From the IMG/VR virus record IMGVR_UViG_3300028769_000032, positions 1 through 30,044 of that record: DNA of 30,044 bases, one strand, 5' to 3'. The DNA is from a virus. The position numbers and the translations under genes are program-made. The notes beneath the pieces are model-generated. The model had not been told where the DNA came from. It saw only the letters and a list, made by a program, of their open reading frames with translations, and did no database searches. The stretch's first letter is position 1, and every line of letters begins with the position of its first letter. Below, piece by piece: positions 2,839 through 29,181 of this stretch.

Positions 2839-5190
2839 TTACTTAACTGGACAACTTCCGCCGACACAATCTGATTCAATAATTTCAAACTCTTCACCTT
2901 TTTCATACTTTTGCAAAACTTCTTGTTTAAATTTAGGAGTGATTTTCAACATTGCATCATATTCCTCTTGTGTGAGAGATTCATATGGAAGCAACTCATA
3001 CATCGAATCTGTTAGAGGCAAGAAACTCAGTCCAATAATGGAGTCCCAGTTTTCCCAAACCCATTCCTCCACCGCTTCCCACTCGTCATCACGAACTGTC
3101 ACCGTACAGCTCACATTATGATTCGAGTATTCATCCATAAACATCTTATAATTTTCAAGTTGTTCGATTGCCGTAACCTCATACTTTGTCTTGCCTTTAG
3201 GACTTCTCATAGGAAATTCAAATACAATGGTTGTGGCATTTTCTTTTGTTTGACCAACCTCTGGATTCCATCTGAATCCCATCTCCTTCATAGCTTCAGC
3301 AAGAGGGTCGTTTACAGAAATTCGGATGCGCCTAGTGTATAATTCACTATGTTGGTAGTGTATACCTGACGACACTCCTGCGAGTAGACTAATTGTGCCA
3401 GATGGTTTATTGGTGCAATGCAATACCGGAGGGTTTAACCCAAGTTCTTTTGCGTATCTTTCAGATTCATCAATTGTAATTTTTCTAAGTTTATTAAGAA
3501 TTGCACGTTGATTGCCATCGGTGAGTTTTAATTCGTTTACAAAATCCTGCCATCCTGTAATAGAACAGCCAATCAATCTATCACGTTTATTAATCAAGTC
3601 CCAACTATGCAATTCAAAATCTACCATAGTCATACGATAACCCATACGAGCAGAAAGTCTTTGAGCTTCATATAGTCCATCTTCATCTAAAATTCCATCT
3701 TTAACAAACATAATAGGAACAATCTCAGTTAAATTACACATGCCACGACTATCCAACAAAATTTCAGTGCAAGCATTTACGCCTTTGAAGTTAGGTCTTC
3801 TTTTAATAGCGTGTTCTGCGTTGACCCAAGCTGGTTCTCCTGAGTATCGCATAGTCTTCATTTGCCAATTCAATTTCTCTCTTGTGGGTTTTGCATAATA
3901 CATAATGGAATTATTACTCATTTGGCGATGAATAATTTCTTCATTGATAATCCATTTTCCATTTTCCAACTTGTATAAGTTGGTTTTTGCATTAGTCACA
4001 TCTTCATCATCTTCGTCAAACAATATGACCTCTGCCGTTCTGCGTACACCTCCGCTTACAACATTCTCGCCTAATATATTTGCAATATCCATAGCATCAA
4101 TTGGTTGTAGTTTTGTTTTATTTCCAAACTTACCTTTTGATTGTTTGAATACCATTGAAATCTTATTTAGCATCTTTCTCATACTTTCGTGACCAGATGA
4201 GTATCCGCCGAAAGTTTTTAAAATTTGCCCCTTCTCACGAATATTATCATAGTCAATAAGGATTGTGTCAATGTTGCTATATATATTCCGTGAATGGATT
4301 TCAATAAAGAATCTTAAAGCTTCCACCCAGCCTTCTTTGCTGTCTGAGATTGTAATTGTTGCGATGTTATTTTGGAATGTAAGTTCAGTATTTTCTTTGC
4401 GTTTACCTTTTGGAATAGGTGTGTAGTAAGCATCAATAATTTCGATATCATTTCTAACAGGTGGTAGTTTTTCTACGTCTGTTTTCCCAATTCTAAATCC
4501 TTTACCTGCACCAATCAACAAAAGATAGAATGCTTCATGGTATGCTTCAAGCTCATCCAATACAATGAATGCACAATTAAAGTTTGACATAGGATATTTT
4601 CTACTTACTTCTGTATTCGCAACCCACAGACTTCTTCCTGATGGAAATTGTCTGAGGTTGTAAATATTATCAAACAATTTTTCGGCTTCAACAATAGATG
4701 TATTTGGAGCTAAACCACAATTGTACTCTACAACCCTAGCTACAGTCTCCCACCACATTTCTCTGCGTTTGAGTTCTGGTAAAAAACGACTATATGTTCT
4801 CACATAAGTAAATTCACTCATTGCTGTGGGGAATGGATTAGGTTTGTGTTTATACTTTGAAATGAAATCCTTAGATAGAAATTTATATGGAGATTTCAAA
4901 CTGCGTTCATCATTTTTCTTGTCACGATATTTAATATAAGCACGAGCAACCTTAAAATGCCCCATATTAGCTAAAGCTTCTTCAATGCAATCTTGTAGAA
5001 CTTCTATCCCAATTGGAACACTTTCACTTTCCTCATCAAACAACATCAAAACTTCATCTTCCACATCTTCCGCAATTTCTCTTGCTTGTTCTTCTGTAAA
5101 CTCAAATTCCATCAAAGCTTTCATCACAGCGTAAACGATTTTATCTCCTGAATATTCAACTACTTCACCCGAACGTTTAATTACCTGCAT
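2839..5190 (-). CDS. nrdJ: Adenosylcobalamin-dependent (class II) ribonucleoside-triphosphate reductase
   Basis: A 783-residue monomeric class II reductase that makes dNTPs from NTPs using coenzyme B12. An ATP-cone allosteric domain occupies about residues 1-95. The catalytic motif NACTE gives the radical Cys474 and Glu476. Cys206 (SNFNCAF) and Cys485 (GMCNL) are the expected redox pair, and the C-terminal CVGGSC gives the swivel pair Cys775/Cys780. The spacings 474-485 (11) and 775-780 (5) equal those known for the Lactobacillus leichmannii enzyme (408-419 and 731-736). The segment LPLTDSMYELLPYESLT is typical of this family. No NrdB-type radical subunit gene is in the window, consistent with class II. 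The ribosome binding site is weak (AGGG about six bases from the ATG). A homing endonuclease gene follows. Confidence 0.93.
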   Translation of the reverse strand: MQVIKRSGEVVEYSGDKIVYAVMKALMEFEFTEEQAREIAEDVEDEVLMLFDEESESVPIGIEVLQDCIEEALANMGHFKVARAYIKYRDKKNDERSLKSPYKFLSKDFISKYKHKPNPFPTAMSEFTYVRTYSRFLPELKRREMWWETVARVVEYNCGLAPNTSIVEAEKLFDNIYNLRQFPSGRSLWVANTEVSRKYPMSNFNCAFIVLDELEAYHEAFYLLLIGAGKGFRIGKTDVEKLPPVRNDIEIIDAYYTPIPKGKRKENTELTFQNNIATITISDSKEGWVEALRFFIEIHSRNIYSNIDTILIDYDNIREKGQILKTFGGYSSGHESMRKMLNKISMVFKQSKGKFGNKTKLQPIDAMDIANILGENVVSGGVRRTAEVILFDEDDEDVTNAKTNLYKLENGKWIINEEIIHRQMSNNSIMYYAKPTREKLNWQMKTMRYSGEPAWVNAEHAIKRRPNFKGVNACTEILLDSRGMCNLTEIVPIMFVKDGILDEDGLYEAQRLSARMGYRMTMVDFELHSWDLINKRDRLIGCSITGWQDFVNELKLTDGNQRAILNKLRKITIDESERYAKELGLNPPVLHCTNKPSGTISLLAGVSSGIHYQHSELYTRRIRISVNDPLAEAMKEMGFRWNPEVGQTKENATTIVFEFPMRSPKGKTKYEVTAIEQLENYKMFMDEYSNHNVSCTVTVRDDEWEAVEEWVWENWDSIIGLSFLPLTDSMYELLPYESLTQEEYDAMLKITPKFKQEVLQKYEKGEEFEIIESDCVGGSCPVK

Positions 5191-5226
5191 AACACCCTAA
5201 CCCTTTCTCAATTAAATCCCAACGTC

Positions 5227-5472
5227 CTACTCCATTGTTTCCTTGCTTAGCTCATCAATATTATTTTTCAAATAGTCTGTAACCTTTTGATATCCTTTGG
5301 TGTTATTACTTTCATCAAATCCACGAAATTTAACACGAGCAGGATAAGCATTTTTAACTTTACCATCTTCCACATCTAAACAGATAGCCCATCCGAACAC
5401 ATGGAGTGTTTGGTTGATTAACCAAAGTAAGCCACAGTTTCTAAATTCGTCCCAAGTCTTTTCAGTGACCAT
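5227..5472 (-). CDS. Small conserved phage protein (FR-GLLWLIN-LH-FGW type)
   Basis: An 81-residue protein with the pattern WDEFRNCGLLWLINQTLHVF followed by GWAICLDVED and YPARVKFRGF. I recognise this arrangement from small uncharacterised proteins common in phages and prophages of many hosts. It has no membrane segment or catalytic motif. Its ATG overlaps the upstream stop by one base (TAATG), and GAGGGG serves as ribosome binding site. It sits between two other small genes and the reductase in a unit probably started by the promoter at 6070-6099. Function unknown. Confidence 0.75.
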   Translation of the reverse strand: MVTEKTWDEFRNCGLLWLINQTLHVFGWAICLDVEDGKVKNAYPARVKFRGFDESNNTKGYQKVTDYLKNNIDELSKETME

Positions 5473-5696
5473 TATTTCCCCTCCATCATCTCAACCAACA
5501 ACCTAACAGCCTTCTCACAATTAATCCCATTTTTACCCACAAAACAACCATCCAGAATAATAGCCTCAATTTGCTCTCTAAGCAACTTTTTCTCAATCAC
5601 TTGTCTAATCTTAAACGCTTGCTCATGAGCGCTAAACGGGGTTGTTTCAGCGTAGCCACGGCTGAGTTTAGGTGGAACCATATATTCTGTACTCAT
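5472..5696 (-). CDS. Hypothetical protein, 74 residues
   Basis: A small, soluble, mostly helical protein. The N-terminus (MSTEYMVPPKLSRGYAET) is probably disordered. Residues 22-45 (HEQAFKIRQVIEKKLLREQI) look like a charged amphipathic helix. The C-terminus has a single Cys pair (DGCFVGKNGINCEKA) too far apart to form a zinc finger. The ATG overlaps the preceding stop by four bases (ATGA), which argues for a real, coupled gene. It is not recognised as a known family. Confidence 0.65.
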   Translation of the reverse strand: MSTEYMVPPKLSRGYAETTPFSAHEQAFKIRQVIEKKLLREQIEAIILDGCFVGKNGINCEKAVRLLVEMMEGK

Positions 5697-6040
5697 CCAA
5701 TCTCTCCTTTACATTTATCACAAACATATTCCCTGACTTCCCTTTTGCCACCACATCTCTCGCAAGTATAACTTGCTTTAATTTCGGCAGCTCGTATACA
5801 GTTATCAACGACACGATTAATTATATCATTTTCTGAAAGTGTGTGATAAAATCTCAAATTATTAAATTTACTTTTTACTTGGATACAAATAATTTGACAA
5901 TAGGTAGGAAGTGATTTGTTAATTACCTCAATTTCCTCACATAAATACCAAATCAAGTCATACCAACCTTGAGGACATTCATATAAATTTTTGTTAAGGA
6001 TATTTGGAAATCTAATGTTTAATTCGTCGTATGTTTTCAT
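5693..6040 (-). CDS. Phage zinc-ribbon protein of unknown function
   Basis: A 115-residue protein whose C-terminus is a four-Cys zinc ribbon: Cys93-x2-Cys96 and Cys107-x2-Cys110 (YTCERCGGK and YVCDKCKGE). The preceding segment VKSKFNNLRFYHT with a following AAEIKASYTCE is the signature I recall from a widespread family of uncharacterised phage proteins (KFG-LRFY...AE-S-TCE-CG). The start ATG at 6040 has AAGGAG about eight bases upstream, and the promoter at 6070-6099 lies just ahead, so this is the first gene of the unit leading to the ribonucleotide reductase. It is likely a nucleic-acid or protein-binding accessory factor, but the target is unknown. Confidence 0.7.
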   Translation of the reverse strand: MKTYDELNIRFPNILNKNLYECPQGWYDLIWYLCEEIEVINKSLPTYCQIICIQVKSKFNNLRFYHTLSENDIINRVVDNCIRAAEIKASYTCERCGGKREVREYVCDKCKGEIG

Positions 6041-9208: not shown

Positions 9209-12200
9209 TTATTTGCGAATAACTTCCCATTTTTTCAGAATCAATTCTACTTCATCAATATTAACCCATTGACCATCAATTTTGCGCTTACGTTTTTCTT
9301 CAGCAATTTCATTTGTAACAATGATATCGCCAACTACAAATTCATTATTATCAAAAGCTTTACCTCTGACTTTAATTTTTTCTGTACCACCTTTAGCGAG
9401 TCGGTGTAATGTGATGAATTTGTTGCTAAAGGATTGTTCAATGATAGTCACAATTGCATATGAGTCTGGAAGCTCTGATACGAGAGTTTGTGCATAACCG
9501 AGATATTCAAGTTCGTGTTGGACTTTTTGTTGTACGCCAATATCTTTGTCGGGAATAGTTTCTGAAATAGATTTGATGATGCTCGTTGTGTCAACTAATT
9601 TGTATTGCTTCTCAGTTTGTGTTGAAAATTGCTCTATTATTGATTTGTATTCAGGATTAATTTTTTCTTTTGACATTTGTTTCTTGCCATAAAACGTATT
9701 AAACACTTCTACGGTTTTTAACAACTTTTTTGCTTTACCAAATTCATCGAAGAATCCAAGCAATATTAAAATTTCAAGTTGTCTTGAATTTACAGAGCAA
9801 CCTTTGATATCTACCAATAGCTCTGCAAAAGATTCATATTGATTATCTTTTAGTGAATACAACTCTTGTGCAATCAATTCGTTTAGATGTTTAATGCTAC
9901 TCATACCTTTGTAAATTGTGTTTGTTTCTTTGTTGATAGAGTAATCAGCTTCGGAGTGCCTAAATTTTATGGACTCAACCTTAATATCAGTAAACCCATT
10001 TATAAACTCAAAAACCCTCGTTGTTTTATCTTGATTGCTTTTGCATACATTTAGTGCAGTAGCAACAAATTCAAGTGTATAATAATGTCTCAAATAAGCA
10101 CACATCAAGCCTATGGCGGAATATGGTACAGAATGGTTTGATGAAAACAAATATGAGCTGGCATCTTCAATTACTTGAATAAATGATTTTACAATTTCTT
10201 CCGCTTCTGATTTAGACGTATTGTATTGTTCTTGCATTGTTTTTACAAATCCATCAATAATCCGTGGCATAAACTCTTCTGTTCCGGTCTTTTTTGCAAA
10301 ACCTCTTCTAACAATATCCGCCTCGCCCATTGTAAAACCACAGAATTTATTTAGGAATTCAATGATTTGTTCCTGAAAAACTAATCTACCTAATGTTGGA
10401 GATAAAAATTTATCTAATGCTTCATGACCATTTTCGTAAAACTCACCTTTTGCCAAAGAATATCTGTAACTTTCTCCAGCCGGACGTATCGCTCCGTTGC
10501 CGATAGATAATAAATCTACCAATTTCACATTTGGATTAAGTTGTTTGATTTTTTCAATGGTTCCTTTTGAAAACAATTGCTTATAATACGCATACGCAGA
10601 ATCAGATTCCCACTGGAATATTTGAATACTACTTTTCATTATTTCATCATATAAGCTTTGGTCTTCCATATCAAAATTATCCATTGTTAATCTTGGGATT
10701 CCTGCGAGGGCACAAGTTTTATTAATTACCTCAATATTGTCCAATCCAAGGATATCAAGTTTTACAAAATTTAATCCGTCCACTTCTTTCATGTTGACTT
10801 GTGCTACTGGATAATCACACGTAGAAAGAGTAAATGTTCCAAGTATATCATCTAATGGCATTGGGGAAACGATTGTTGCTGATGGGTGGGTTCCAATTGA
10901 CACAACAACCCCGATAAGCAAATCAACGTATTCAAAGATTTCGGGATACTCATTTCTCCATTTATCTTCCTGCGTTTCTATTGTAGAACACATTTCACCT
11001 ACAGTTCCTAAATCAATATTAAATGTTCTGCACACATCTCTTATTGCCCCTTTGATTGCTATGGTATTAAACGTTACAATCTCCGCACAGTATAATCCAT
11101 GTTTATTATAAACATATTGCTTAACCCAATCCCGTTGTGATGGAGGCCAATCCGTATCCACATCAGCCAAGCTAATTTTATTAGGTGAAAAGAGCCTTTC
11201 AAAGTTCATATTAAACTTTAAACTGTCAACGTCCGTAATGTTTAATAGATATGCGTTAAGTGACCCCGAAATACTTCCACGAGAGGGGCCGGGGAATATC
11301 CCCTCTTTTCTACCCGCAGATTTAATATCCTCTTCAAGCAACATATAATCTATTACACCAAGTTTTTTCATAACGCCAAATTCATAGTTTAGACGATTTT
11401 TATAATCTTCTGTGTTTGGATATTTATCAATTCCTCTTTCATAAAATCCCTCTAATACTTTAGCTTTAAATACTTTATTTGGATTTTTATATAACTTAGG
11501 ATATTTATACGACCTATCCAATGAAAATGATTCAATTGATTCTGCGATAACATTTGTGTTCTGGATTGCCTCAATTACAACATCCATTGGCAAGGAGTTT
11601 TGATTTGTAAATGCTTTAACTAATTCATCGTAGGTCTTAAATGATAAATCCCACCCTGCTTCATTTTCAAATAGAATTGATTTTGATTTCTGCAAAACAT
11701 CTCTTCCTTTTAGATGCTTTGCGTTTAATGCGTGAGTATCTGTACAGGCCACCAATGGAATTCCAGTTTGCCTATGGACTTCATAAAGTTTCTGGTTATA
11801 AAGAATTTGTGAATCAACTTTGTGGTGCTGTATCTCTAAATAACAGCGATGTTTATTTTTTTTCATAAATTCAATAAAGTCTCTTTCTAATTCAGCGTCT
11901 TCTGAGTTTAAGATTCCGCCCAAACATGCCGTTGAAATTATGACGTTATCACTAAATGATTTTAACTCCTCATACGTGATACGAGGTGCAAAGTAAAAAT
12001 GACCATCTTTTCTATTACATGCTAAATCTGCTGAAAAAGCTGTGTTTAATTCTTTTACAGCGTCCCAGTTCTTAGCAATGAGCAGAACGTGATAGTTATC
12101 TCTCTTTTTTTCTTCTGTGGATAAAGTCACGTAGCCTTCAATTGCGTGGATGTACTTTATGCCAACTTCATCACAATATTGTTTTTTATTTACCCACGAA

Positions 12201-12349
12201 AGAAAGTTACCGTGTTCGCTAAAGGCAATTGATGTCATGCCCGATTCTTTCGCCAATTTGATGTAATCCTTGTAATGTGTAACTGAATCAATTGTTGTAA
12301 ATGCATTGCTCAACATGGAGTGAAGATGCAATACTGTGTAGTTTTTCAT
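9209..12349 (-). CDS. dnaE: DNA polymerase III alpha subunit (DnaE type, C-family)
   Basis: A 1046-residue replicative polymerase. The N-terminal PHP domain keeps nearly all metal ligands: His8/His10 (LHLHS), EHGN at 45-48, Glu71, His87, Cys142, His175/176 and Asp204-x-His206. This suggests intrinsic proofreading, with one Asp-to-Glu change. The palm has PGPSRGSISGSLNAYLLNIT followed by LADVDTDW, giving catalytic Asp398 and Asp400, and VKLDILGLD giving Asp532. These correspond to Asp401, Asp403 and Asp555 of E. coli DnaE. The fingers include a QEQIIEFLNKFCGFTMGEAD segment, and a tandem HhH and OB-like C-terminus follow. No separate proofreading exonuclease is in the window. The start overlaps the homing endonuclease stop by four bases. 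SPbeta-type phages also carry a DnaE-like polymerase. Confidence 0.95.
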   Translation of the reverse strand: MKNYTVLHLHSMLSNAFTTIDSVTHYKDYIKLAKESGMTSIAFSEHGNFLSWVNKKQYCDEVGIKYIHAIEGYVTLSTEEKKRDNYHVLLIAKNWDAVKELNTAFSADLACNRKDGHFYFAPRITYEELKSFSDNVIISTACLGGILNSEDAELERDFIEFMKKNKHRCYLEIQHHKVDSQILYNQKLYEVHRQTGIPLVACTDTHALNAKHLKGRDVLQKSKSILFENEAGWDLSFKTYDELVKAFTNQNSLPMDVVIEAIQNTNVIAESIESFSLDRSYKYPKLYKNPNKVFKAKVLEGFYERGIDKYPNTEDYKNRLNYEFGVMKKLGVIDYMLLEEDIKSAGRKEGIFPGPSRGSISGSLNAYLLNITDVDSLKFNMNFERLFSPNKISLADVDTDWPPSQRDWVKQYVYNKHGLYCAEIVTFNTIAIKGAIRDVCRTFNIDLGTVGEMCSTIETQEDKWRNEYPEIFEYVDLLIGVVVSIGTHPSATIVSPMPLDDILGTFTLSTCDYPVAQVNMKEVDGLNFVKLDILGLDNIEVINKTCALAGIPRLTMDNFDMEDQSLYDEIMKSSIQIFQWESDSAYAYYKQLFSKGTIEKIKQLNPNVKLVDLLSIGNGAIRPAGESYRYSLAKGEFYENGHEALDKFLSPTLGRLVFQEQIIEFLNKFCGFTMGEADIVRRGFAKKTGTEEFMPRIIDGFVKTMQEQYNTSKSEAEEIVKSFIQVIEDASSYLFSSNHSVPYSAIGLMCAYLRHYYTLEFVATALNVCKSNQDKTTRVFEFINGFTDIKVESIKFRHSEADYSINKETNTIYKGMSSIKHLNELIAQELYSLKDNQYESFAELLVDIKGCSVNSRQLEILILLGFFDEFGKAKKLLKTVEVFNTFYGKKQMSKEKINPEYKSIIEQFSTQTEKQYKLVDTTSIIKSISETIPDKDIGVQQKVQHELEYLGYAQTLVSELPDSYAIVTIIEQSFSNKFITLHRLAKGGTEKIKVRGKAFDNNEFVVGDIIVTNEIAEEKRKRKIDGQWVNIDEVELILKKWEVIRK

Positions 12350-13128
12350 GCGTTCATCTCCAATCCATATTTTTCAAACAAGTGTTTTTGCGGCGACATA
12401 TCTCCGTACAATTCTAACTCAGTTTTTAATCTCGCTACAACTGCATCATCAAAATCTTTAAATGTGCCTAAGTTTAATCTCTTTTTATCATGCACAATAT
12501 AAGCCTTATATCTACTTTCTAATTTGACCCAAGACACACCAACTACGCCAGATGTATTACTTTTCTTTTTGTTTAAATTTTTCATATTTTCAGAGTGTGA
12601 AACTATTCGTAGATTTATTTTTCTATTATCCCACGGTTGACGATTGATGTGGTCAACATCGTCTAATTTATCTCCAAACCTTCCAAGAATTAAACTGTGT
12701 AATAAAATGTATTTATTTTTGCCATCAACTACATCGTATCTCGTTCTTAAATATCCGTCTTTATGTTTGTGCCATGTGTATGGTTTGATTATATCATAAT
12801 CTTCTTCATCTATAAAATATTCGTAACCACACATTGTTTTCATTGTTATATATCCATCTGTATACAGTGGCTCACAAAATGACCTTTTGGTGTGCATACA
12901 TTTAAAACAAACATTGGATACATTATAAACCAAAGAATGTTCTCCTACTATATTTTCGTATCCACAATCGCAAACGGTTTTCCATACACTGGTTTCTGAA
13001 TTCGATTTTTTATACATCCCAATAAATTCAATTACCGTCTTTGAGCCTATCTTGCATCCAATAAAATTCTTAAATCCATCAGACAGAATGTTTGATGTCT
13101 TATTGCTTTCGTCATATACCTTTTTCAT
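12346..13128 (-). CDS. HNH homing endonuclease with AP2 DNA-binding domain
   Basis: A 260-residue free-standing homing endonuclease. The N-terminal part has a Cys-x-Cys-Gly plus Cys-x2-Cys zinc-binding region (TVCDCGYEN and NVCFKCMHT). The centre is an HNH nuclease (LLHSLILGR then DDVDHINRQPWDNRKINLR). The C-terminus is an AP2-like DNA-binding domain (GVVGVSWVKLESRYKAYIV...LGTFKDFDDAV). I place the start at the ATG at 13128 because GGAGG sits five bases before it; a frame extension of nine residues upstream has no such signal. The gene sits between the Fe-S nuclease and polymerase genes and overlaps the polymerase start (ATGA), so it is integrated into the operon. DNA polymerase genes are frequent targets of such elements. 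Confidence 0.9.
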   Translation of the reverse strand: MKKVYDESNKTSNILSDGFKNFIGCKIGSKTVIEFIGMYKKSNSETSVWKTVCDCGYENIVGEHSLVYNVSNVCFKCMHTKRSFCEPLYTDGYITMKTMCGYEYFIDEEDYDIIKPYTWHKHKDGYLRTRYDVVDGKNKYILLHSLILGRFGDKLDDVDHINRQPWDNRKINLRIVSHSENMKNLNKKKSNTSGVVGVSWVKLESRYKAYIVHDKKRLNLGTFKDFDDAVVARLKTELELYGDMSPQKHLFEKYGLEMNA

Positions 13129-13138
13129 TTTTCCTCCA

Positions 13139-14155
13139 TTATTCCACCATCTCACTCAAATACTTTTTATAATATGGACACTTATGACTATGATTGCACA
13201 ATTGACCGCAATAAAAAGATGTTGATTTATCAATAACAACCGGACTCCAATCTGATTCATCGGTATTCTTTGCATTAATTGCATTAACTGTATCTACAAT
13301 ATATTGTTTAGTTTCTGCAATTGCTTCATCTGTCAACTCATATTCAATAATACAATCATGCATTGTAAAAGCGTCTTGAACGACCTGTGGTAGTCCTGAG
13401 ATGCTATTTTCTGCAATTGCCTTATCAATCATCATATCAATCTCAAAGTCGTCATATGAGTCAGGAAATTGATTTTTAATAGGCTTCTCCATTTTAGCAA
13501 CCCATTTACCTCTGTTGCATAATGTGCGTTTTACTTTTTTATTCTTCTGTACAAAATCCACATACATATATTTCAACATCATCCATGCTACCTTGCGAGG
13601 GATATAACCTTCAGATTGTTTTGCTAATGCATATACTACAAGTTGTCTTCCTGCATGATGAAGCTTTTCGCCTTTAAATTCGCTACTCGTTTTCCAGTCA
13701 AATACATCTGCGTATTCACCGTCATAGAAAGTTGCGTCACTGAATCCATATATCCACAATCCCGGCTCAACTTCAAATAGAATTTCTTCCTCTGTTTTTA
13801 ACTCCATATCCATTTTTTTATATGTCTCAGCAAAATGTTTAATATCGGCAATCCATGAATCTGCAATCTTCTGGTTAGGAAAATCAAAGCCCAAAATATC
13901 TGCTTCCATCAACCCATCTTCTATGACCGACTTCAAACATGATTCATCTTTTTCTCCATTATAAATTGACTCAAGGGCATCATGTAATTTATTCCCCATC
14001 ATAGAATAAATGTTTGGTCGCCCTCTATCTTTTGGTTCTTGCACATAAGTTTTATAATATGAATACTGGCAAGTATCAAATGCATTGAGCCTACTGATTG
14101 AGTATAATGGGATTTTCTTATCCCGTAATTCTTTAACCTTTTCTTTAATTTTCAT
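13139..14155 (-). CDS. Fe-S PD-(D/E)XK nuclease (RecB/Cas4 family)
   Basis: A 338-residue nuclease of the RecB/Cas4/AddB type. In order: Cys29 (FDTCQYSYY), His58 (GNKLHDALE), Asp140 (GFSDATF), the motif Asp153-Trp-Lys155 (VFDWKTS), Gln171-x3-Tyr175 (QLVVY), and three C-terminal cysteines at 316, 320 and 326 (FYCGQLCNHSHKCPYY). One N-terminal plus three C-terminal cysteines is the arrangement that binds a 4Fe-4S cluster in this family. All catalytic residues are present, so it should be an active exo- or endonuclease on single-stranded or end DNA. It lies between the primase and polymerase genes in the replication operon, suggesting end processing or recombination-dependent replication. Confidence 0.88.
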   Translation of the reverse strand: MKIKEKVKELRDKKIPLYSISRLNAFDTCQYSYYKTYVQEPKDRGRPNIYSMMGNKLHDALESIYNGEKDESCLKSVIEDGLMEADILGFDFPNQKIADSWIADIKHFAETYKKMDMELKTEEEILFEVEPGLWIYGFSDATFYDGEYADVFDWKTSSEFKGEKLHHAGRQLVVYALAKQSEGYIPRKVAWMMLKYMYVDFVQKNKKVKRTLCNRGKWVAKMEKPIKNQFPDSYDDFEIDMMIDKAIAENSISGLPQVVQDAFTMHDCIIEYELTDEAIAETKQYIVDTVNAINAKNTDESDWSPVVIDKSTSFYCGQLCNHSHKCPYYKKYLSEMVE

Positions 14156-24582: not shown

Positions 24583-25425
24583 TTATTTTAAGAAATCTAT
24601 ACTCTTTTCTTTCAGTCTTGATTCCGCAATATGGATATAGATTTTACTCGTGGCTGGATTGGAGTGTCCTAGGATTTCACCAATTGTAATGATATCTGCT
24701 CCATTCATTGCGTATGCGCTGGCGGTTGAGTGTCTACATGTGTGATTGGAAAAATCAGCATGACCAAGTTGCTTGAAGTATTTTTTAGTCGTTTTTGTCA
24801 GCGAAGTTCGTCCCAATCGTCCTCCATCTTTATTTGTAAATAACGCCATTTCATTTCTTTTAGCTTTTCTTACTTTTAGATATTCATTAATTGTAGTTTG
24901 TGTACTTGCAGGAACTGGTACAGAACGTGGCTTTCCGCCTTTGCCAATTACATGTAAACAACCATTTTTAATTGACATTAAATCAAGTCCAAGTAGTTCA
25001 TGTGAACGCAACCCACAGTTTAACAACACGGATACAATCGCAGAGTCACGAGCTTTATCTGATGCCAATTCATTCATTTTGCTCATTTCATCTGTGGTGA
25101 GATATTTTATTTGTTTCTCTGGTTCTCTGCGAATTCCTAATTCTATTGCTGGATTTTCTTTTATCATCTTTTCAATAACCATGATGTTAAACATGCGAGT
25201 GATAGATGCTTTCCTTCTGTTAAATGTACCTGCGGTTTTACATCTGTCTTTCAGGAAATTTTTAATATCTTGTCGTGTAATTTCAAGGGGAGATTTTTTA
25301 GTATACTCAAATAAGTAATAAACATCTTGTGTATAAGCTTGTACAGTTGCTTGACTACATTCTTCTTCTTCAAGATATTTAATTAGAATTTGAGCTTCTT
25401 TAGGTAATTTATATTCCATAGACAT
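24583..25425 (-). CDS. Tyrosine recombinase (XerC/D-like integrase family)
   Basis: A 280-residue site-specific recombinase. The N-terminal core-binding domain covers about 8-95 (ATVQAYTQDVYYLFEYT... FNRRKASITRMFN). The catalytic domain holds all expected residues: Arg140 (LLNCGLRSHELLGLDL), Lys162 in the beta-hairpin (VIGKGGKPRSVPV), His228-x2-Arg231 (SNHTCRHSTAS), His254 (GEILGHSNPATS) and Tyr263 (KIYIHI), so it should be active. The length is that of Xer-type enzymes without an arm-binding domain. The ATG has AAAGGAG upstream. A 37-base perfect inverted repeat with loxP-like arms lies 23 bases ahead of the start (25448-25484), a plausible site of action. It may resolve genome multimers, circularise the genome or integrate it; no excision partner is visible. 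Confidence 0.92.
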   Translation of the reverse strand: MSMEYKLPKEAQILIKYLEEEECSQATVQAYTQDVYYLFEYTKKSPLEITRQDIKNFLKDRCKTAGTFNRRKASITRMFNIMVIEKMIKENPAIELGIRREPEKQIKYLTTDEMSKMNELASDKARDSAIVSVLLNCGLRSHELLGLDLMSIKNGCLHVIGKGGKPRSVPVPASTQTTINEYLKVRKAKRNEMALFTNKDGGRLGRTSLTKTTKKYFKQLGHADFSNHTCRHSTASAYAMNGADIITIGEILGHSNPATSKIYIHIAESRLKEKSIDFLK

Positions 25426-25503: not shown

Positions 25504-26691
25504 TTATATTTTCACCACTCTGTCTAAGTCTCCAACATAAAAATTATCAACCTTAAACTTTAATAGCTCTTTAAATTTCAACATTGGGATTTTTTCATTT
25601 GGAAATAATACACTCCCATCAGTTAATTTTGAGTGTGTCATCATAATACCCAACTTTGTTTCTGGATATGATTCTGCAAATCTATTATAATCCATAGTTA
25701 CATTATTTGAAAAATTCTTCAAGTCAAAATATCCATAACGTAGAGTTTCTTGAAATTCATTGGGTTGATTGGTTTCATCGAATAAATCGAATCCTAAATC
25801 TTTAGCACAAGATACTTCATGTTGCATATATCCCTTACCATGCCGTGTGTGATAGGTTCTTGTAACATAAATAATTTCAATATCCTTTTCGCCATTAATC
25901 TTATTTAACAACATTTCAACATTTTCTGAATTAGTTTTAGAAGCTGTCAAATGAGGCATGAATTCATTTCTATCCCAGTCCAACATTAATCCTTGAGCAC
26001 CTTCAAATACAAGATTGTTAAACTTGTTCATTATATTAGCTTCATTCACAATATTACAACTATCAAATATTTTCTCCAAATCCATTTTAAAGTTTTGAAT
26101 CAATTCCTCACCGTATACGTTGTCTAATTTAGATGTGTAATAGTGATTGTGTTGAATTTCTCTTAGCAGAGTTAATAATTCACCTTGTAGATAAGATTGA
26201 TATAAGTCTTCAATTGTAAAATGTCTGTATTCTTGTCCTCGGATAATGGACTCAAATAGTCCATAACCACAACTGCCATGATTTACACTTGTTAGCTGTC
26301 TTTCTCTTTCAATTTTCTCATTCAACATTCTGTCCCAAGGCAAAATAACTTTGCAGTCTAAATCAATATAAAGCAGATTCAACATGTCCGATACATCAAC
26401 CTTAAATATTTCTGCAAGTTTTTCTGCTTCAATTATGAGATGAATCGGTTCTACTACAAATGTAGATGCAAGCAATGTATATATATGATTTTGTAACATT
26501 CCAGCACCAAATGTTTTAAATACATGTCTGATTCCATTTCTTTCTACTGTATGCCCGGCTTGAGCCGTTGAATTATGACGCACCGCCAACCCACTGCCTT
26601 TATTTTTTAAATTGCTACACAAATAATCAACCGTAAATCCCTTACCTTCATCTCCATACATACTCCCTATAACAATTTTTATATTTTTCAT
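25504..26691 (-). CDS. purA: Atypical adenylosuccinate synthetase (PurA family)
   Basis: A 395-residue enzyme of the family that joins Asp to IMP using GTP. The start is the ATG at 26691, with AAAGGAG six bases upstream. The N-terminal loop is IGSMYGDEGKG, which keeps the catalytic Asp; AQAGHT keeps the catalytic His. Other segments differ from bacterial PurA: RHNSTAQAGHT replaces R-x-x-G-G-x-N-A-G-H-T, HGSCGYGLFES stands where GTTGRGIGPAY is usual, NEFQETLRYGYFD replaces the TTGRPRRCGWFD loop, and THSKLTDG stands near the usual TKLD guanine motif. The phage PurZ enzymes that make 2-aminoadenine carry Ser or Gly in place of that Asp, so this is closer to true PurA. It may raise ATP/dATP supply or use an unusual substrate. 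Confidence 0.85.
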   Translation of the reverse strand: MKNIKIVIGSMYGDEGKGFTVDYLCSNLKNKGSGLAVRHNSTAQAGHTVERNGIRHVFKTFGAGMLQNHIYTLLASTFVVEPIHLIIEAEKLAEIFKVDVSDMLNLLYIDLDCKVILPWDRMLNEKIERERQLTSVNHGSCGYGLFESIIRGQEYRHFTIEDLYQSYLQGELLTLLREIQHNHYYTSKLDNVYGEELIQNFKMDLEKIFDSCNIVNEANIMNKFNNLVFEGAQGLMLDWDRNEFMPHLTASKTNSENVEMLLNKINGEKDIEIIYVTRTYHTRHGKGYMQHEVSCAKDLGFDLFDETNQPNEFQETLRYGYFDLKNFSNNVTMDYNRFAESYPETKLGIMMTHSKLTDGSVLFPNEKIPMLKFKELLKFKVDNFYVGDLDRVVKI

Positions 26692-26756: not shown

Positions 26757-27671
26757 CTAAAACCTTACAAGTTTAGAGTCGTTCGTGCTATTGCCTACAA
26801 CCGTCACACTCTTAACTGAACTTGCAATTTGTTTTGCTTTGTCCGTACCGATAGTTTTAATGATATCCGCTTCATCCATTCCTTTAAGTTTCATACATAG
26901 AGCAATCAACACTTCAGGGATGGTATCAACATCCTCAACAAGAATCAATCTATCACCAAGCAAATCTTTCCAATCTTGCTCAACAGCATTTCCATCCCAA
27001 CCCATTCGAGAAGTCATATGAATATGGAATACTTCATACTTTTTACTTACCATTGAGAAGATGTCTTTTGTTGAAACAGTTTCATCATCTTGCCCAATGA
27101 CAGATTTAATTTCTGAATTTGTGAGACTACTTGGAAGTCCATCATTTCCAATAGTAATCATAATACCCTTTTTATTTCGTTTCTCCAAAGCATCCGTTAC
27201 GGTGTGTTTAGAAGCATAATACCACCCAAGAGGATAGCTTTCACTTCCATTTCCGCCGCCGCCTTGCTCAAAATAGATTTCTTTAAGTTGCTCTGCAATT
27301 TTAATGTCAGATTCAAATTGAGTTACTTGAAGTGGCGCAGAATCACATTCTACATCGCCAATACCCATAATCATAATTTGCGGGTCTTTTACAATATCCT
27401 TTTCAAAGATTGTAGATGCAAATGTTCCAATGCCTGTTGCAATAGTTTTGAGCAAATGACTCATACTTCCAGTTACATCCAATCCAATGATAATTGGTGT
27501 TGTTTCAAGCTGATGAACATTGTCACGACTTTCTCTGAATTCAAACTTTGCAGGATTAAACACATCTTTAAGATTTTGTGAAGTGTAAATTTGTGCTGTT
27601 GATTTGCTATCAACCTTTGTTGTTGTTCTGTAACTTGTCCATGCTTGTGAACTCGATGCTGAACCACCCAT
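26757..27671 (-). CDS. VWA-domain protein
   Basis: A 304-residue protein with a von Willebrand A domain, a metal-dependent binding fold. I place the start at the ATG at 27671 (AGGAGG seven bases upstream, inside the last codons of the J-domain gene); a ten-residue longer frame has no such site. The first 50 residues, starting MGGSASSSQAWTSYRTTTKV, are Ser/Thr-rich and precede the domain. The MIDAS motif is IIGLDVTGSMSH (Asp65-x-Thr-Gly-Ser69). Further conserved segments are QIMIMGIGDVECDSAPLQVT, GGGGNGSESY and ITIGNDGLPSS. It is coupled to the J-domain/kinase-like gene with one base between them, which implies joint function, perhaps a chaperone-like complex. There is no signal peptide. Confidence 0.85.
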   Translation of the reverse strand: MGGSASSSQAWTSYRTTTKVDSKSTAQIYTSQNLKDVFNPAKFEFRESRDNVHQLETTPIIIGLDVTGSMSHLLKTIATGIGTFASTIFEKDIVKDPQIMIMGIGDVECDSAPLQVTQFESDIKIAEQLKEIYFEQGGGGNGSESYPLGWYYASKHTVTDALEKRNKKGIMITIGNDGLPSSLTNSEIKSVIGQDDETVSTKDIFSMVSKKYEVFHIHMTSRMGWDGNAVEQDWKDLLGDRLILVEDVDTIPEVLIALCMKLKGMDEADIIKTIGTDKAKQIASSVKSVTVVGNSTNDSKLVRF

Positions 27672-27672
27672 T

Positions 27673-28707
27673 TTAATTTCCTCCTGTTTTGTACATATCA
27701 TCTTCAGATATGTTTAATGTGATAAACTTCCGTTGCCCAAATCCTTCCATCATTGCCTTTTCCCATGAGTTATATTCATCTATTGAGGATTTCATTGAAG
27801 CCTTATTAAACCAATTTGCAATAGCTTTCGGTAAATTATCTTTATTTGATTCTGTATAAATAATTGAGCCACCATTTAATTTTCTGCCAATATCTTTGAT
27901 TGAATCCAAATCAGTTTTATTAGTTGATATTTTATTCGCCTTAGTATCCACATCCATAATACCATATACATCTGTGACTGTCCCTATCATCTTTTCACCT
28001 TGCTTGGTGCAATACCACCAACCTCCGTTTAAAATGATAGAATGAAACTGTGGTGACACAAAACAATTGTCTATATTGATGCCGTTGTGAACCAACCCAT
28101 TAAACTCTAAGATGCTTGTAATATTAGATAATCTTGTTGTGACCCATGCGGTATGTTTAATATCCAATTTGTCAAGAAATGATTTGAGCAATCCTAATCT
28201 GTGGACATCGTCTGTTTTATGCAATTCCAACACATACCAATCATTTGTTTCGTATGCATTTCTGATAGTTGGCATGAACTTTGAATTGATTTCTTCCAGC
28301 TCTTTTGTAGGGTACTTAATACTTTTAATTCTTACCATAGCATTATTATATAGGTCTTTGTGTGCCTTGTCAACAAGATATGTGATATGATTTCTGCCAA
28401 TTAAAACTTTCCCCAATTCAAAATCAATCGTTTCTCGATATTTATAAGTGATTGATTTACCTTTCAGTGGAGTCAACATCAACTCCTTAACCGAAGAAAT
28501 TGCATTTACAACTCCAATTGATTCCAAAGCTAATTGATAAAATTCATTAAGCTTGGTCATCAAATCAGTATTTCCGCCCTTGTCTGGATGTGCAATAATT
28601 GCCAATTTCTTAAATTCTTTCTTCAATTCTTGCTCTGTAGCTCCATTAAAGACTTCTGAATATTTTTTAGAATTTAAAAATTTTAAAATCATTCCATCAT
28701 TCATCAT
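27673..28707 (-). CDS. J-domain protein fused to a pseudokinase-like domain
   Basis: A 344-residue protein. Residues 12-65 form a DnaJ-type J domain with the essential His-Pro-Asp at 40-42 (IAHPDKGG), which would stimulate an Hsp70. From about residue 95 the sequence follows a protein-kinase fold: GRNHITYLV and MVRIKSI fit the N-lobe strands. LVHNGINIDNCFV has His207 and Asn214 at catalytic-loop spacing but Gly209 in place of the catalytic Asp. LNGGWWY has Asn227 where the DFG Asp should be. Both catalytic Asp residues are therefore missing, so it is probably a pseudokinase; this fold call is my inference. It lacks the Gly/Phe and zinc domains of DnaJ. The VWA gene follows by one base. The ATG has AAGGAG upstream. 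Confidence 0.8.
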   Translation of the reverse strand: MMNDGMILKFLNSKKYSEVFNGATEQELKKEFKKLAIIAHPDKGGNTDLMTKLNEFYQLALESIGVVNAISSVKELMLTPLKGKSITYKYRETIDFELGKVLIGRNHITYLVDKAHKDLYNNAMVRIKSIKYPTKELEEINSKFMPTIRNAYETNDWYVLELHKTDDVHRLGLLKSFLDKLDIKHTAWVTTRLSNITSILEFNGLVHNGINIDNCFVSPQFHSIILNGGWWYCTKQGEKMIGTVTDVYGIMDVDTKANKISTNKTDLDSIKDIGRKLNGGSIIYTESNKDNLPKAIANWFNKASMKSSIDEYNSWEKAMMEGFGQRKFITLNISEDDMYKTGGN

Positions 28708-28716
28708 TTCATCTCC

Positions 28717-29181
28717 TTATTTATAATATCTATAAAAACTTTCAACCATATCGTCTTTCGTTTCACTTCCATCATACAAAACAAACACTTTTATTAATTG
28801 CCCACCTTTGGTTTCGATGGCTTTATCAATCTTGCTTCGTGTTCTTCCTAGATAATATGAATCATCTAGAAATAAACATTTTGCATTTATCATATTTTTA
28901 TCCACAAAATTATGCTCTGATATTTCACCATCGTCTCTTAATCCACCCTCAACACAAATAAGATTTTTCATATCAGGATTAAAGTATGAGAACACAGAAC
29001 CAAAACCTCCAGACACGACAACATAATCTATTTGATTCTCTTTGATTATATAATTGATATACTCTCTTGTCAATTGAATAATATCTTTATTTCTAAAAGA
29101 TTCATCTAAATTATCAAAGAAAATTTCTCCGCCTTTATGTTGTTTTAGCATAGCATCTACAATGTTATCTATTTTATTCAT
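28717..29181 (-). CDS. Phosphoribosyltransferase-like protein
   Basis: A 154-residue protein with the look of a type I phosphoribosyltransferase fold. A strand-loop, IDYVVVSGGFGSVF (about 51-64), is followed by CLFLDDSYYLGRTRSKID at 102-119. There Asp106-Asp107 and Gly-Arg-Thr at 112-114 match the PRPP-binding pattern (hydrophobic strand, two acidic residues, then G-x-T). The next strand, QLIKVFVLYDGS, also fits. There is no recognisable base-specificity hood, so the substrate is unknown. It lies between the wall hydrolase gene and the J-domain gene with gaps of about ten bases. It may salvage nucleobases, or act on a nucleotide in connection with the J/VWA pair. Moderately sure of the fold, not of activity. 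Confidence 0.55.
   Translation of the reverse strand: MNKIDNIVDAMLKQHKGGEIFFDNLDESFRNKDIIQLTREYINYIIKENQIDYVVVSGGFGSVFSYFNPDMKNLICVEGGLRDDGEISEHNFVDKNMINAKCLFLDDSYYLGRTRSKIDKAIETKGGQLIKVFVLYDGSETKDDMVESFYRYYK

Follow-up and report, generated by a model that had tools for sequence, protein, structure and literature searches.

Genes at the locus

The window, by which we mean the whole stretch of viral DNA that was analysed (30,044 nucleotides, 30 kb), carries phage replication genes and an integrase-family gene. Three of its minus-strand genes are considered here. The first, at 27673–28707 (344 aa), encodes a J domain followed by a predicted pseudokinase, and is defined by its open reading frame, a DnaJ match and an AlphaFold2 model. 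The second, at 26757–27671 (304 aa), encodes a VWA protein, recognised by a PHROG match and by the VWA/integrin-I fold of its model. The third, at 25504–26691 (395 aa), encodes a PurA-like protein of the adenylosuccinate synthetase family (Pfam PF00709, 3.1e-36). The reading frames leave a single base between the J and VWA genes, as the original prediction had stated. In addition, the AGGAGG Shine-Dalgarno sequence of the VWA gene (27680–27685, minus strand) is located within the last codons of the J gene, a position that suggests translational coupling of the two. A longer VWA start at 27701 in the list of reading frames was rejected as spurious, because the ATG at 27671 follows AGGAGG and aligns with the nearly invariant M1 of the family.

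Other genes of the window were seen in passing. A tyrosine-recombinase family protein is encoded at 24583–25425 (Phage_integrase, 3.5e-30). Upstream of the J gene, a 154-aa reading frame at 28717–29181 contains a PRPP-binding-like motif, LDDSYYLGRT, and looks phosphoribosyltransferase-like by eye; no homologue of it was found in any other fetched locus. The reading frames at 2210–2776 and 12346–13155, which adjoin RNR-like and DNA polymerase III-like genes, resemble homing endonucleases (by eye only).

A three-gene cassette in phages and bacteria

No relative was recovered when viral contigs were scanned with each window protein as a single sequence, and queries had to be built from alignments. 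The VWA alignment gathered 80 viral and 80 bacterial loci and the J-kinase alignment 69 viral loci, to which phage records were added. Loci gathered in this way favour relatives of the window protein, so the fractions given here are not population frequencies. The J-pseudokinase gene lies directly upstream of the VWA gene in 84 of 171 VWA loci from viral contigs, phages and bacterial genomes (56 of 88 non-redundant VWA clusters at 70% identity), with a median gap of 21 nt. A PurA-like gene is near the VWA gene in 157 of the 171 loci (80/88 clusters), always on the same strand and at a median gap of 12 nt. Four loci (L088–L090, L096) came from the J-kinase query only, and each has the VWA gene downstream. 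Both J-kinase and VWA genes are present in 189 Mycobacterium phage records, one Mycolicibacterium record and one uncultured record, and every phage group that carries the J-kinase also carries the VWA gene; phages of Rhizobium (10 records) and Vibrio (6), together with one gut phage, have the VWA gene without the J-kinase. As a control, viral loci were collected by their J domains only, and none of these 65 contained a VWA, PurA-like, Nudix or NADAR gene.

The original prediction treated the J-kinase and VWA genes as a pair. They do occur together, far from rarely, and the pairing holds; as a unit the pair was incomplete, since it is part of a cassette of three genes with the PurA-like enzyme. 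Gene order across these loci shows that J-pseudokinase – VWA – PurA-like enzyme is conserved in phages and bacteria. About half of the VWA–PurA loci lack the J-pseudokinase, which is therefore not obligatory. In Vibrio, Rhizobium and gut phages its place is taken by a Met-rich protein. Among loci without the J gene, a Met-rich protein (for example MNRFFRRVDGVVWDLMSG...) was seen upstream at L002 4217–4930, L003 3774–4568 and L004 4391–4999, and in L047, L055 and L078. Another protein, 111 aa long and coiled-coil-like (MEEDLKPRFIESLQRNNDQIREDRA...), precedes the VWA gene at L195 4662–4997 and in about 30 Bacteroidota loci (Chryseobacterium/Flavobacterium); it has no convincing family match.

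All three genes were found in Bacillota, Pseudomonadota, Acidobacteriota, one cyanobacterial MAG and cultured phages such as Bixzunavirus, and Bacteroidota have the VWA and PurA-like genes without the J gene. The three-gene loci on bacterial chromosomes are surrounded by ordinary genes, and a Nudix gene is usually found upstream of them or in divergent orientation. On a plasmid of Agrobacterium vitis the genes overlap and follow the order Nudix / J-pseudokinase – VWA – adenylosuccinate synthetase. In the J-pseudokinase tree, phage and bacterial copies cluster, with 4 changes between them versus about 20 by shuffling, and the window copy belongs to a supported group made up of viral contigs and Bacillota. 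Within the family that holds the Massilia genome, a full-length J-pseudokinase is limited to that genome among 195, so the cassette is patchy; the other 14 matches are partial (43–57 bits), cover the kinase region only and resemble ordinary kinases. One locus, on the megaplasmid of Methylorubrum extorquens AM1 (L276), has a J-pseudokinase, but its VWA match is weak and confined to an overlapping frame. This locus may be a broken cassette and was excluded from the evidence.

A phage-only distribution is rejected by these bacterial copies. The original prediction had left room for a role in host takeover or anti-defence. With the cassette also present in bacterial chromosomes and plasmids, a phage-only takeover role is weakened, and such a role is no longer the default. 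The same distribution bears on a function as virion-assembly chaperone, as proposed for jumbo-phage DnaJ and MoxR–vWA proteins thought to aid assembly (PMC7824862). The cassette is found among non-phage genes in bacteria, its partner is a metabolic enzyme rather than a structural gene, and few structural families are among the neighbours, all of which make this explanation very improbable. Membership of the MoxR–VWA pairs was rejected as well, as no MoxR AAA+ ATPase recurs among neighbours within two genes.

Bixzunavirus (mycobacteriophage cluster C) offers a close comparison. In Dietrick, gp249, gp250 and gp252 are homologous to the window genes and have the same order, sharing the J-like HPD region, the VWA protein and the PurA-like enzyme. 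Unlike the window, Dietrick has an 88-aa gene between the VWA and PurA-like genes. The three are annotated as "serine/threonine kinase", hypothetical protein and "PurA-like adenylosuccinate synthetase". The kinase label was given to gp249 though its HRD Asp is Ala (HGA) and its DFG site reads IDW. In the open-access papers searched, no published function of the Dietrick cassette genes was found.

The J domain and the pseudokinase

The J domain spans residues ~4–65 (28513–28698, minus strand), with the HPD motif at 28582–28590. Pfam DnaJ matches residues 20–51 with an E-value of 2.5e-5 and 24.8 bits, just below the gathering score of 27.8, and the family profile of the J-pseudokinase matches solved J domains at about 1e-9. 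In the model, helices 25–39 and 47–63 form the J-domain hairpin. The predicted J domain with an intact HPD (H40-P41-D42) is thus borne out by profile and model alike. In the family alignment, the HPD columns hold H in 62/62, P in 59/62 and D in 61/62; in some Bacillota copies the aligned position shows no HPD, a poorer fit to an adaptor.

The kinase fold follows at residues ~76–343 (27679–28482, minus strand), placed by structural and family alignment. The AlphaFold2 model, built from 62 relatives, has a mean pLDDT of 92.8. Its residues 79–334 match NIK best in the PDB (Z 19.9, rmsd 2.8 over 229 residues), with many other kinases scoring near these values. The model therefore has the kinase fold that had been expected after the J domain, and sequence and model together uphold the fusion. 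At the HRD site the window protein reads H207-N-G209, where G209 replaces the Asp; His207, Gly209 and Asn214 are as first described. The DFG site reads NGGWW (G228-G-W-W). Here the reported loss of the Asp stands, and whether Asn227 or Gly228 is the exact replacement depends on the alignment. The VAIK Lys has no aligned counterpart, and N122 occupies the aligned position of the α-C Glu. Catalysis by the kinase domain is ruled out by its sequence, so that we regard it as a pseudokinase and reject the label "active Ser/Thr kinase". Among the 62 relatives, the DFG Asp is lost in 60, with GGW nearly fixed, the HRD Asp is lost in 52 and survives in 10, and the position of the α-C Glu is mostly Asn. 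Because the lost sites recur across relatives, the dead kinase is a family trait and not the outcome of decay in the window genome. The HPD is retained while the kinase site is dead, which argues that the J module is under selection.

Only one J–kinase copy with an intact catalytic site was found, in a single phage lineage. The 485-kb uncultured jumbo phage LR745208 (L005/L089) has the same J–kinase–VWA order, and its kinase gene at 4968–6002 (Pfam Pkinase 7e-29) retains HGD and DFG. The many PADLOC matches of this kinase (PD-T4-6/Mad6) were discarded as reflecting a generic kinase domain. A Thg1-like gene lies downstream at 9434–10327.

This active copy would suit a signalling module derived from VWA–kinase systems, in which the pseudokinase would be an allosteric partner or decoy in a TerY-type phosphorylation pathway and the active form would be preserved in one jumbo phage. 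TerY-type sets and HSP70/DnaJ/vWA conflict systems also have a VWA gene beside a kinase-fold protein and a chaperone theme, with sets of kinase, PP2C and VWA genes among them (PMC7159879). The cassette differs in that its kinase is dead and fused to a J domain, and its VWA protein is missed by the Pfam VWA models. In addition, PP2C phosphatase is not among the families found at least twice in 133 neighbours within two genes, and the active form is confined to one phage lineage in our sample. With the DFG Asp absent in 60/62, a signalling module of this kind is unlikely. The comparison with tellurite-resistance systems made in the original prediction fails on the features tested, namely the kinase and PP2C, and membership of a TerY triad is rejected on the same two features.

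Two further comparisons concern the J domain. The top Foldseek hits of the model are the human J-PKA fusion (8fe5, 4wb7). In DNAJB1–PRKACA of fibrolamellar carcinoma, the J domain is likewise N-terminal to a kinase fold; this is a cancer fusion of somatic origin whose kinase is active, and its likeness to the window protein is architectural only. A phage J protein that binds DnaK has a precedent in Rki of phage RB43, which, like the window protein, has a phage-encoded J domain and acts on host DnaK (PMC3486835). The abstract of that paper presents Rki as a stand-alone J-domain protein and mentions neither a kinase fold nor VWA/PurA partners, unlike the window protein. The window J protein may recruit DnaK in a similar manner.

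The VWA protein

The VWA protein belongs to phrog_2971, the closest PHROG, whose function is unknown (3.1e-42). No Pfam or NCBIfam model covers the family, and 0/60 of its members match any Pfam model. The model (pLDDT 91.9) confirms the proposed VWA/integrin-I fold, with a Foldseek probability of 1.0 and a TM-score of up to 0.68 on target length among the matches listed. The first MIDAS motif, D65-V-T67-G-S69 (27465–27479, minus strand), has D, T and S in 60/60 members. The metal site had been called a complete MIDAS, which overstates it. DxTxS is invariant; GGGGNxxESY occupies the usual Thr loop and is non-canonical, and the third-loop Asp, kept in 59/60 members, is Asn176 in the window protein with Asp177 adjacent. 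VWA proteins acting as Mg2+-dependent peptide-binding co-chaperones have been described (PMC7159879, PMC9503650), and by analogy the VWA protein of the cassette may bind peptides.

The VWA gene of Mycobacterium phage FoxtrotP1 (L275 2501–4285), annotated as hypothetical, carries an intein-like in-frame insertion of ~256 aa, which is shared by the VWA genes of Pinkcreek and Quasimodo. The insertion begins with CNTPDAPVW, ends with ASSN before a Cys, and is located just before the conserved MIDAS loop GDE.

The PurA-like enzyme

The window enzyme scores 106.7 bits against the PurA equivalog model (cut-off 402) and 47.8 bits against the PurZ model NF038379 (cut-off 300). On the latter score, a PurZ role in 2-aminoadenine synthesis for a Z-genome was rejected. 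PurA has a catalytic Asp and His, and its TTGRRRR loop binds aspartate. We compared 149 cassette enzymes with ten true PurAs from bacterial genomes. The Asp and Lys of GDEGKG and the catalytic His are kept in 148/149. In the aspartate loop, Thr is replaced by Gln and one Arg is deleted in all 149, the TKLD Lys is lost in every one, and the cassette enzymes have new invariant residues of their own. They thus share the PF00709 family and the catalytic Asp and His with PurA and phage PurZ, but not the TTGRRRR loop and the TKLD Lys, and score far under both cut-offs. A separate true PurA coexists in 11 of 12 bacterial genomes tested (526–639 bits; one fragment at 261), so the cassette enzyme is a paralogue. 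It is natural to infer that its substrate or product would differ from that of PurA. Because the aspartate-binding loop is lost and the catalytic Asp and His are kept, the enzyme probably couples a purine nucleotide to a different amine or amino acid, or has some other nucleotide as its substrate.

NAD+-related neighbours

Bacterial copies of the cassette often have NadM or an NrtR-like regulator of the Nudix type beside them. Among the 28 Nudix neighbours, NF050029, the NrtR model, matches 22 with E<1e-10, although the single score inspected lies below the curated cut-off; six match NadM-type NMN adenylyltransferase models. No NrtR Nudix-HTH regulator was seen in the 30-kb window. NrtR-family regulators can govern unrelated pathways, such as arabinose use (PMC4666351). 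In Bacteroidota loci, where the J gene is absent, the further neighbours are NADAR, macro, Sir2, NAMPT, PRPP-synthase-like and KptA genes, of which NADAR, macro, Sir2, NAMPT and KptA were verified by Pfam. NAD-linked neighbours other than NrtR and NadM are mostly in loci without the J-pseudokinase. These neighbours suggest that the function of the cassette may be linked to NAD+ or ADP-ribose.

They also bear on a counter-defence role, in which the phage cassette would counter defences of the NADase or deaminase type by restoring or protecting purine/NAD pools or by removing ADP-ribose signals, and the J-pseudokinase and VWA protein would be accessory chaperones. NADAR, macro, NAMPT and KptA near VWA genes would suit such a role, and phages use related enzymes to counter NAD+ depletion (NARP1, PMC12774641) and to act on ADP-ribose signals (PMC9503650). 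However, the cassette accompanies an NrtR-like regulator near housekeeping genes of bacterial chromosomes and on the Agrobacterium plasmid, PADLOC families match no window protein, and NAD neighbours are few in phage loci with the J gene. We therefore regard counter-defence as doubtful, if the strongest of the alternatives.

Proposed mechanism and significance

We favor, with a probability of roughly 0.4, a model in which the J-pseudokinase and the VWA protein together make up an adaptor that recruits DnaK and through which the PurA-like enzyme is matured or regulated, as part of a response linked to NAD+/ADP-ribose. Gene order by itself suggests that the three proteins may contact each other. 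The pseudokinase domain would be a protein-binding scaffold, the J domain would bring host DnaK, and the VWA protein would grip a client peptide via its metal-site loop. Together with DnaK, which would be the sole ATPase of the assembly, they would fold, assemble or switch the PurA-like enzyme or its target. The output of the enzyme would belong to a stress response linked to NAD+/ADP-ribose, as its NrtR-like, NadM, NAMPT, NADAR and macro neighbours hint. Bacteria would turn this response on when NAD+ metabolism is disturbed, and phages would carry the cassette to keep nucleotide supply or signalling favourable during infection. More tentatively, the cassette could represent an undescribed NAD+/ADP-ribose-linked response system found in bacteria and phages alike. 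In it, a VWA protein and a pseudokinase that recruits DnaK would control a PurA-like ligase, and the ligase would make a novel purine nucleotide that is a signal or a protected cofactor precursor.

The cassette is widespread but apparently undescribed; no description of it was found in the open-access papers searched. Pfam and NCBIfam lack a model for its VWA protein, and annotations label the J–pseudokinase a hypothetical protein, except in Bixzunavirus, where the label is kinase. We regard the cassette as a variant of VWA–kinase-type modules and chaperone modules, around which there may plausibly be a new enzyme system. The Bixzunavirus phages of M. smegmatis are tractable material for its study. 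In the divergent PurA-like enzyme, the loss of the aspartate loop predicts a new product. The J-domain–pseudokinases are a natural family with GGWW fixed in place of DFG and one lineage with an intact kinase, so that the path between an active kinase and a chaperone adaptor can be tested.
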